This document shows, piece after piece, positions 5,452 through 6,985 of a stretch of 8,701 nt of DNA. Numbering within the stretch: position 1 is the stretch's first letter; the number at the start of each line of letters is the position of its first letter. Both the position numbers and the translations under genes were made by a program. Origin of the DNA: Chloroflexota bacterium (GTDB lineage: Bacteria > Chloroflexota > Dormibacteria > CF-121); assembly GCA_005889285.1 (NCBI GenBank), contig VBFF01000019.1:1-8701 (forward strand). The letters run 5' to 3'. The notes beneath the pieces were generated by a model. That model did not search any database and had not been told where the DNA came from. It was given only the letters and a program-made list of their open reading frames with translations.

Positions 5452-6090
5452 CTACAACGTGTTACCGGCCAGCAGCAATGCTCTAACCTCGTCGTCGGTA
5501 ACCTGTGGCCATTCCTGGAAGAAGTTCCCGACCGCGTAGAACGGCTCCGGATTGTCGAGGCAGACGAATTCATCCACCTGTGGCCTGAGCCAGCCAGCAG
5601 TGTCGGGTGGCGCAACGGGGACCGCCAGCACCACTCGTTGGGCACCACGCCGGCGCACCGTCTGGATACCCGCTTGCGCGGTATACCCCGTCGCAACACC
5701 GTCGTCGGTCAGGATCACGGTTCGGCCCTCGAGCGGCGGCATGGCTCCCGCGCCCAGCCTCGCCAGCCAGGCCCGCAACTCCTCGCGCTGCCGCGCCGCC
5801 GCGTGCCCGATGTCGTCCTCGGTCAGACCGAGGTGCTGGCTGAGTCGGCGATCGAAGACGAGCACCGCATCATCGTCGACGGCCCCGATCGCGAGTTCGG
5901 GATTACCCGGAGCGCCGAGCTTGCGCACGGGGCAGATCCCCAGCGGCAGATTCAGGTCGACGGCGATCGCCTTCGCCACAACGACGCCGCCGCGGGGGAT
6001 CCCCAGCACGATCGTTCTGTCCTGGTCGCGGTAGCGTTGCAAGACGGCCGCGAGGCGCTCGCCGGCATCGGTGCGGTCGCGGAAAATCAC
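5452..6090 (-). CDS. Phosphoribosyltransferase family protein (COG1926-like)
   Basis: A 212-residue type I phosphoribosyltransferase-fold protein; substrate unknown. The PRPP-binding loop is [15 protein letters not shown] (125-139), the signature of the family with the paired acidic residues D129-D130. [10 protein letters not shown] (30-39) fits the pyrophosphate loop, and [16 protein letters not shown] (56-71) resembles the flexible-loop region of predicted phosphoribosyltransferases of the COG1926 type. The C-terminal part, with [19 protein letters not shown] (184-202), is also typical of that group. No hydrolase or other fused domain is seen. The GTG start (6090-6088) lies 6 bases from a TATTGT -10 element, so the mRNA may begin at the start codon itself. 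This would be the first gene of the operon continuing to ligA. It is divergent from the peroxiredoxin with only 17 bases between the two start codons. Confidence 0.9.
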
Positions 6091-6094
6091 CGAA

Positions 6095-6103
6095 CTACAA
6101 TAG
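6095..6103. promoter_or_regulatory. Symmetric bidirectional -10 element, likely leaderless on both sides
   Basis: CTACAATAG gives TACAAT (6096-6101) on the plus strand and TATTGT (6102-6097) on the minus strand; both fit TANNNT. Counting the last T of each -10 as position -7, the +1 falls on the A of the peroxiredoxin ATG (6108) and on the G of the phosphoribosyltransferase GTG (6090). The element is centred at 6099, exactly the midpoint of the 17-base gap. I see no convincing -35 on either side. The direct observation is the spacing; promoter activity is inferred. Confidence 0.6.
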
Positions 6104-6107
6104 GTCG

Positions 6108-6641
6108 ATGTCGACGGCCGCGACGAACATGCCCGGCGTCGGGGACCTGGCGCCCGATTTCACGCTGCCGGGGACCCCGGATGGTGATCCCGTTTCCCTC
6201 TCCTCCTTCAAGGGCAGCAAGCACGTCTTGCTCGCCTTTTACGTTTTCGACTTCAGCCCCGGCTGAACCAACGAGCTCACCTCCTTGCGAGGTGATCACC
6301 AGCAGTTCGTGAAGGCAGAGACCCAGGTGCTTGGCCTGAGCGTCGATCACATCTGGGCCCACAAGGCGTACGCAAAGAGCCTGGGCGATCTCCCCTTCCC
6401 GATACTTGCCGATTGGGACAAGTCCGTCGCGCGCCGCTACGGCGTGCTCAACGAAGAGCGAGGCGTCGCCCAGCGGTCCTTGTTTCTAGTCGATTACCGG
6501 GGCTACATCCGCTGGCGCAACCCTCATTACGACTGGCGCAGCCAGGAACAGTACGCGCAGGTGACCGAGGCCATGCTGGCGCTGCCGATGATCCCGAGGG
6601 CCAAGCAAGCGACCTCCCAGCCGGACCCTCCGCAGAAATAG
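6108..6641 (+). CDS. Selenocysteine-containing peroxiredoxin (1-Cys, AhpE/BCP-like), in-frame UGA at the active site
   Basis: Peroxiredoxins reduce hydrogen peroxide and organic or peroxynitrite peroxides with a peroxidatic Cys, or here Sec. Reading through the TGA at codon 53 gives 177 residues with the full thioredoxin-like fold: [11 protein letters not shown] (12-22), the strand [14 protein letters not shown] (39-52), the Sec site, TNEL (54-57), [35 protein letters not shown], and [15 protein letters not shown]. Cys homologs typically read FDFSPVCTNEL-like here, so TGA replaces the peroxidatic Cys, with Ser50 at the Thr/Ser position of the PxxxTxxC motif (V46 replaces the Pro). The protein has no cysteine at all, so Sec would be the only chalcogen nucleophile and the mechanism 1-Cys-like. 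A hairpin follows the TGA. The ATG at 6108 is chosen for its fit to the -10 element and a full N-terminus; a second in-frame ATG lies at 6129. The alternative is a nonsense-mutated pseudogene, but the rest of the frame shows no decay. Confidence 0.85.
6264..6266 (+). other. In-frame UGA, predicted selenocysteine codon (codon 53)
   Basis: This TGA is the only in-frame stop between the ATG at 6108 and the TAG at 6639, and it falls on the peroxidatic position of the peroxiredoxin fold. It is one base from TGC or TGT. pcrA in this window ends with TGA, so UGA is also a normal stop here and wholesale reassignment is unlikely. Confidence 0.75.
6277..6295 (+). promoter_or_regulatory. Candidate bacterial SECIS hairpin
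   Basis: TCACCTC (6277-6283) pairs perfectly with GAGGTGA (6289-6295) around the loop CTTGC (6284-6288). The stem starts 10 bases and the loop 17 bases after the UGA, within the range known for bacterial SECIS elements, which lie inside the coding region just after the Sec codon and are bound by SelB. The loop has a G at 6287 but lacks the GU order and the bulged U of the E. coli fdhF element, so SelB recognition would have to differ. The pairing is observed; the role is inferred. Confidence 0.5.
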
Positions 6642-6665
6642 AAAAGGCCAGCCCGAAGGCTGGCC
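6642..6665 (-). terminator. Rho-independent terminator of groES
   Basis: A perfect 8-bp stem GGCCAGCC (6646-6653) / GGCTGGCC (6658-6665) closes a tetraloop that reads TTCG on the minus strand. On that strand it is followed by TTTT (6645-6642), then CTATTT. It starts 17 bases past the groES stop. On the plus strand it begins 4 bases after the peroxiredoxin stop but lacks a U-tract, so any action in that direction would be weaker. Confidence 0.85.
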
Positions 6666-6682
6666 GTTGATGGTTGAGAGGT

Positions 6683-6985
6683 CTAGCTCTTGCCGTTGGC
6701 GACGACGGCCAGGATGTCCTTCTCGGACAGGATCAAGTACTCGGTCTCGTCGAGCTTGATCTCGCTGCCGGCGTACTTGGCGTAGACGACGCGGTCGCCA
6801 ACTTTGACATCGAGCGGCTCGCGCTTGCCGGTCGTCTCGATGAAGCGGCCGTTGCCGACGGCCTCGACCATGCCTTCCTGCGGCTTTTCCTTGGCCGTGT
6901 CGGGCAGAACGATCCCGCTCTTGGTCTTCTCTTCGCGATCGACCGGCTTGATTACGACTCGGTCGCCCAATGGACGTAGCTTCAT
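6683..6985 (-). CDS. groES: Co-chaperonin GroES
   Basis: The 10-kDa lid of the GroEL chaperonin, a heptamer that caps the folding chamber in the cytosol. The 100 residues match the family from end to end: [14 protein letters not shown] (1-14), the GroEL-binding mobile loop (about 17-36) with IVLP at 25-28, [10 protein letters not shown] (37-46), [14 protein letters not shown] (60-73) and the C-terminal [10 protein letters not shown] (85-94). The ATG has a strong Shine-Dalgarno. Control is by a sigma70-type promoter with a CIRCE operator, so HrcA repression and heat induction are expected. Unusually, no groEL follows: a terminator comes 17 bases after the stop and the next gene is on the other strand, so groES is transcribed alone. 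Confidence 0.98.

Follow-up and report, generated by a model that had tools for sequence, protein, structure and literature searches.

A Peroxiredoxin Gene with an In-Frame UGA at the Catalytic Cysteine Position in a Chloroflexota Bacterium, Likely Decoded as Selenocysteine

The Peroxiredoxin Gene and Its Surroundings

The window, the whole stretch of 8,701 nucleotides analysed here, carries a peroxiredoxin gene, and the features of this gene are listed in Table 1. The translation of positions 6108–6641 on the forward strand gives a peroxiredoxin of 177 residues, in which the sole internal stop is the TGA at 6264–6266. When this TGA is counted as one residue, the Pfam AhpC-TSA domain covers residues 11–136 with 116.5 bits against a cut-off of 26. 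The Pfam match and the predicted fold, described below, assign the protein to the peroxiredoxins with a thioredoxin-fold domain. An earlier note, made from the sequence alone, had described the frame as a full peroxiredoxin broken only by the TGA, with no frameshift or other stop after it. The translation and the Pfam match agree with this description, and the same is true of the 16 full-length copies from the bacterial family to which the window belongs. The start codon ATG is conserved in these 16 copies, 51 or 52 codons upstream of the UGA.

Table 1. Positions of the features of the peroxiredoxin gene in the window.
Feature	Position	Strand	Remarks
Possible −10 element TACAAT, 6 nt 5′ of the ATG	6096..6101	+	Read by eye
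Peroxiredoxin coding sequence	6108..6641	+	177 residues; UGA is codon 53; stop codon TAG; Pfam AhpC-TSA
In-frame UGA where homologues have the peroxidatic (catalytic) Cys; likely selenocysteine	6264..6266	+	Codon conservation
Hairpin 3′ of the UGA, likely a bSECIS with a non-consensus loop	6277..6295	+	7 bp; loop CUUGC at 6284–6288
ORF of 118 aa from TTG in the standard code; truncated form in the protein database	6285..6641	+	
Arg123 codon	6474..6476	+	Arg in 42/42 stop-codon forms and 62/63 Cys forms (tree set)

The PxxxT/SxxC motif and an active-site Arg are hallmarks of peroxiredoxins, and the active-site Pro, seven residues before the catalytic residue, is near-universal. In the window protein, the PxxxTxxC motif appears as V46xxxS50xxU53. 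Ser50, U53, and Arg123 are present, the last of which we take to be the conserved active-site Arg, and Val46 replaces the Pro. The window protein contains no Cys residue. Cys is absent from ten of the 16 family copies; in five, a shared Cys stands ten residues ahead of U, and the last copy has a Cys elsewhere.

The genome assembly containing the window is 1.73 Mb in 193 contigs and is 82% complete. Upstream of the peroxiredoxin gene lies a divergent phosphoribosyltransferase gene (5452–6090, minus strand), and downstream lies a groES-like gene (6683–6985, minus strand), presumably groES as judged from its sequence. Both neighbours were matched beside all 15 family orthologues searched (L010–L024), with one of the matches being partial in L018 and L021. 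The closest named full-length relative shows 93% identity. Between the 3′ side of the groES-like gene and the end of the peroxiredoxin gene, a strong terminator-like hairpin is present on the minus strand (6646–6666).

The sequence TACAAT was observed by eye at the same distance from the start codon in 15 of the 16 family copies, and L024 has TAGAAT. A sigma-70 scan found no site. The transcript may be leaderless, with TACAAT as a putative −10 element.

Conservation of the UGA Codon

The family is represented by 18 genomes, and all of the 16 full-length copies, from four genera, have TGA at the codon for the catalytic Cys. In genome G004 the gene is split across two contigs with the TGA in the first part, and no peroxiredoxin match was found in G012 among the 18 family genomes. 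The earlier note had placed the TGA exactly on the peroxidatic Cys, and alignment with Cys-containing homologues confirmed this. The TGA column corresponds to Cys in 18/18 Cys rows of a 36-row alignment. The protein database gave 278 homologues, of which the best 120 were fetched; Cys occupies the site in 63/63 of those fetched with less than 55% identity. The window gene thus shows a mark of selenoprotein genes, an in-frame UGA at the position of the redox-active Cys of its homologues.

One search for relatives reached 61 loci, with some genomes reached twice, and revealed 56 TGA, 2 TAG, and 1 TGC, with two loci ending short of the codon. A set of 44 loci includes 41 with TGA, one of them a duplicate, 2 with TAG, and 1 with TGC. 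When 110 genomes of the class were searched, 57 genomes were matched and an internal TGA was found in 57 of the 60 match rows; the three other rows are the downstream part of the split copy and two rows both with TGC. At the level of the phylum, 202 of 400 genomes gave matches. A sample of 75 loci was taken from the upper part of this match list, outside the window's class, and the 73 loci covering the site comprise 32 TGA and 41 Cys forms. UGA peroxiredoxins are therefore common in the phylum alongside Cys ones.

A copy from Halobacteriales (L067) and a database protein (P0056) both contain FYVFDF, a stretch seen in many Sec forms, yet carry Cys at the site and again five residues later. It is possible that they are Cys ancestors or reversions.

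Selenocysteine Machinery and the Match between Codon and Anticodon

The window genome encodes SelA (540 bits) and SelB (345 bits) by adjoining genes on contig C171, and SelD (405 bits) on C181 (locus L042). A tRNA-Sec with the anticodon UCA was found on C139 with 58.2 bits (cut-off 47). The occurrence of SelA, SelB, SelD, and tRNA-Sec(UCA) in one genome is another mark of selenoprotein synthesis. Absence of this machinery had been named in the earlier note as a refutation, and all four components are present. A UGA is also found at the active-site position of SelD (HGAG-U-ACK), which brings the number of such UGA genes in the window genome to at least two. Among 14 named control genomes, matches over the cut-offs were obtained for selA in one (E. 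coli), selB in two, selD in two, and tRNA-Sec in five. Since the tRNA-Sec model exceeded its cut-off in 5/14 controls, the anticodon matters for the tRNA call.

A selA match was found in 53 of 61 genomes. Among the eight genomes with no selA match, three (G024, G050, and G056) have TGC or TGT at the codon in their homologue, and three (G018, G028, and G038) gave no peroxiredoxin homologue at E 1e-10. The other two, G009 and G029, have the UGA gene. G029 retains tRNA-Sec and selD despite having no selA match. G009 belongs to the same genus as the window genome and carries its UGA gene at L012; none of selA, selB, selD, and tRNA-Sec was found over the cut-offs in this assembly, which is 87% complete and 6% contaminated, and its highest-scoring candidate for tRNA-Sec reads as tRNA-Ser. 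This genome speaks against any strict rule linking the UGA gene to the machinery. Recent loss, assembly gaps, or the 6% contamination could explain this case.

Two loci from Geodermatophilus (L075 and L077), whose products are 36% identical to the window protein, have TAG at the catalytic codon. The best tRNA-Sec matches in their genomes (L107 and L106) score 66.6 and 66.4 bits and have the anticodon CUA; ARAGORN labels the CUA-anticodon tRNA-Sec of both genomes as tRNA-Pyl. UAG-coded Sec was reported for Geodermatophilaceae, including AhpC of Blastococcus saxobsidens, in PMC5330540, and the two Geodermatophilus loci are probably relatives of this AhpC. The codon at the site tracks the anticodon of tRNA-Sec (UAG with CUA), which fits Sec and does not fit a stop.

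Decoding of the UGA as Trp, Cys, or another standard residue, through codon reassignment or leaky decoding, is conceivable in principle, and no observation was found in its favour. Three family copies of the peroxiredoxin gene (L012, L022, and L024) end in TGA, and thus UGA retains its normal meaning as a stop. The Sec machinery of the window genome and the UAG codon matched by a CUA anticodon also speak against a standard residue, and this reading is scarcely credible.

Selection on Both Sides of the UGA

Comparison with 15 relatives gave pN/pS values of 0.065–0.279 before the UGA and of 0.009–0.55 at codons +14 to +110 after it. Purifying selection is strong on both sides of the UGA. Normalised synonymous diversity among the 16 copies was scanned in 143 nine-codon segments, and the lowest value was found at +3 to +11 (0.12 vs a median of 0.81). 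Three codons in the region, Ser59 (TCC), Leu60 (TTG), and Asp63 (GAT), are each identical in 16/16 copies; TTG represents just 30 of the 265 Leu codons in the family genes. The minimum of synonymous diversity, together with the three fixed codons, indicates an overlapping nucleotide element directly 3′ of the UGA. Other groups of copies show a weaker dip: f3 has 0.57 for the segment +5 to +13 and its minimum (0.43) in another segment, and for actinomycetes the corresponding values are 0.24 and 0.20, again in different segments.

These patterns bear on the reading that the gene is a pseudogene, or that the TGA is a miscalled TGC or TGT. G009, with its UGA gene and no Sec machinery found, offers some room for it, because decay after the loss of the machinery is possible there. 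The earlier note had also counted differing stops and frameshifts in close relatives as a refutation; the TGA is shared by every full-length family copy in the absence of other stops or frameshifts, the codons on either side are under strong purifying selection, and synonymous conservation follows the TGA. A nonsense change or a sequencing error is therefore very unlikely.

The protein database presents the gene in another form. None of the 57 homologues with at least 55% identity among the best 120 of 278 covers residue 53; 45 of the 57 begin with residue 60, which the TTG encodes, and two with residue 1. The expectation in the earlier note that standard annotation would give a truncated protein was borne out: a 118-aa ORF starts from the TTG at 6285, the same start as in 45/57 relatives. 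It could be proposed that the UGA is a true stop and that the piece from the TTG is the real protein. The existence of this ORF, its prevalence as the database form, and the invariance of the TTG in 16/16 copies are consistent with the proposal, though the hairpin described below accounts for the TTG too. A protein starting at the TTG would be missing both the N-terminal strands of the predicted fold and its catalytic residue; the codons before the UGA are under purifying selection, and the UGA itself is conserved as UGA. It is very improbable that the TTG-started piece is the real product.

The Hairpin Downstream of the UGA

According to PMC13188914, a bSECIS has a loop of 3–9 nt, a stem of 4–16 bp, a distance of 16–37 nt from the UGA, and an MFE of −7.5 or lower, and a G is located within the first two loop positions; the same review states that some bacterial elements fail this model. 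The window hairpin folds with −9.4 kcal/mol at a UGA-to-loop distance of 17 nt, and its stem, loop length, distance, and energy fall within these limits. The hairpin at SECIS distance proposed in the earlier note thus exists, but its loop breaks the G rule of the published model. No G is found in the first two loop positions in any of the 16 family copies. The CUUGC hairpin reaches −7.5 or lower in 12/16 copies, and in the remaining four, L011, L012, L023, and L024, it is less stable, lies elsewhere, or gives way to another fold. No Rfam model exceeded its cut-off on the window.

Folding energy was considered as proof of the hairpin and discarded; dinucleotide shuffles gave an unremarkable z of −1.13. 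Codon-preserving shuffles gave a mean z of −1.35 for the family (16 copies), +0.24 for f3 (15), −0.22 for actinomycetes (8), and −0.14 for Terriglobia (2); the two UAG loci scored −1.2 and a single Cys locus −1.79. Consensus hairpins of −7.5 or lower were found in 8/14 f3 copies, 8/8 actinomycete copies, 1/2 Terriglobia copies, and 2/2 UAG copies, and at −5 or lower they were found in 12/14 f3 and 2/2 Terriglobia copies. The loops of the consensus hairpins in these four groups are nearly always 16–17 nt past the codon. Four of 14 Cys controls also have a consensus hairpin, at 24–36 nt. Since Cys controls fold hairpins as well, a hairpin alone is little proof, and the fixed place and the synonymous conservation are more telling.

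For nine of the 16 family copies, pairing in the stem amounts to 93.7%, and a single pair shows a change in both of its bases. The figure is 93.3% for five Chloroflexota copies with the loop UUUAG, picked by eye from the phylum sample, where a single pair likewise shows a double change. Slid structures reach no more than 58.7% pairing in the family set and 66.7% in the UUUAG set. Covariation was rejected as proof because one double change per set is within the reach of shuffles; the double change of the family set is not above shuffles on two of five measures. By eye, the CUUGC and UUUAG sets have a common 5′ arm, and the 3′ arm is shifted two bases on with pairing kept.

Other UGA genes of the family have G-containing loops. 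The hairpins of the family selD genes, by eye, have the loop UGA, in agreement with the G rule. A second, distant UGA peroxiredoxin (L081), on contig C317 of the same-genus genome G004, has a hairpin with the loop CGGGC, which also conforms to the G rule.

Enzyme Type and Structure

The best match of the family profile among solved structures is AhpE of Mycobacterium (1xvw and 1xxu), with 165 bits, and AhpE does not need a resolving Cys. The single window sequence gives a different order, with a plant 2-Cys enzyme (88 bits) ahead of AhpE (76 bits). A resolving Cys is absent from the window protein, and no Cys is common to the whole family. The earlier assignment to a 1-Cys AhpE/BCP-like type is favoured by the profile and the missing resolving Cys, but not by the single sequence. 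An AhpE-like assignment appears reasonable.

The AlphaFold model, built with Cys standing for Sec, shows a peroxiredoxin fold (pLDDT 92.3, pTM 0.86), and the structural matches listed by Foldseek are peroxiredoxins. The predicted fold resembles AhpE 1xxu with a TM of 0.90 by target length, whereas 1xxu ranks 41 by E-value, behind 2-Cys enzymes. The window protein differs from AhpE in its predicted Sec in place of Cys.

Two positions differ between the forms. In the tree set, the residue five after the site is Thr or Ser in 42/42 stop-codon forms and Cys in 27/63 Cys forms; the phylum sample shows Cys there in 1/32 TGA and 12/41 Cys forms. Actinomycete copies have a common Cys 54 residues past the site instead. 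Position 46 is Val in 42/42 stop-codon forms and Pro in 61/63 Cys forms of the tree set, 15 loci of which came from a scan whose patterns included Val46. In the phylum sample, Pro is found in 38/41 Cys and 13/32 TGA forms, and a strict rule equating the Sec form with Val46 was therefore rejected. Given the scan bias and the phylum sample, Val46 is a trend among related sequences.

Phylogenetic analysis placed the window's family in its own clade (support 100/99). As to whether Sec arose once, this tree needs 4 changes. Trees with the Sec forms together were not rejected (p 0.279), nor were those including the two Val-bearing Cys forms (p 0.278).

Discussion

It is highly probable that the window carries an intact peroxiredoxin gene, whose UGA is likely decoded as Sec by the SelA, SelB, SelD, and tRNA-Sec of the same genome, and whose product is a predicted one-Sec peroxidase of the AhpE type. 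SelB with Sec-tRNA would bind the hairpin just 3′ of the UGA and deliver Sec rather than allow termination. The selenolate of U53 would then attack peroxide to give a selenenic acid, and a thiol or thioredoxin-like partner from outside would complete the reduction. An outside reductant is proposed because the window protein has no Cys. No mycoredoxin-like glutaredoxin (TIGR02200) was found in the window genome at its 82% completeness. Judging from the sequences, a one-Sec peroxidase with an outside reductant fits best.

PrxU of Eubacterium acidaminophilum, attributed to Sohling (2001), is reportedly a Sec-peroxiredoxin. The window protein is like PrxU in being a peroxiredoxin with a (predicted) Sec at the catalytic position, but it scores 74.3 bits against the 270 cut-off of the model NF040737, and no NCBIfam model reached its cut-off for the window protein. 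The earlier note's statement that Sec-peroxiredoxins are known in bacteria agrees with the literature, where they (TxxU) form an established family of selenoproteins (PMC13188914, PMC9312934, PMC1088965, and PMC5029168). The motif PxxxTxxU is described for them in PMC13188914, and the window protein differs in having Val and Ser in place of Pro and Thr. Surveys counted 43 sequences (PMC1088965) and 91 sequences in 78 organisms (PMC5029168). These share with the present case the prediction through alignment of UGA with Cys. Among the sequences in the tree, the window's family forms its own clade. AhpC of Blastococcus saxobsidens, described in PMC5330540, is likewise a predicted Sec peroxiredoxin with the same kind of site. 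The UAG system differs in its codon, UAG instead of UGA, and in its consensus hairpin loop, AGUU. Chloroflexi are not mentioned in the main text of PMC13188914, PMC5330540, PMC9312934, and PMC5029168, and no description of a Chloroflexota Sec-peroxiredoxin family was found in the literature searched, which included few subscription papers.

The window gene is very likely a functional Sec-peroxiredoxin of a kind already known. Its unusual features are few: the absence of Cys from the protein, Val in place of the active-site Pro, and a loop outside the published bacterial SECIS rule. Tentatively, and with somewhat less than even confidence, we suggest a second class of bSECIS in this Chloroflexota family, whose loop is CUUGC (UUUAG among certain other Chloroflexota) and starts with two positions free of G. 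It may be read by the same SelB as the G-containing loops of selD and of the second UGA peroxiredoxin, and the enzyme may work without any Cys and without the active-site Pro. The conserved, rule-breaking hairpin allows a direct test of SelB recognition. The site occurs naturally in UGA, UAG, and Cys forms, with the anticodon in step in the two UAG genomes, and so offers Sec decoding a clean test case. Selenium appears to serve peroxide removal across an entire bacterial family, and the searched database has only fragments of its enzyme lacking the active site; selenium use in these bacteria is thus probably under-counted.
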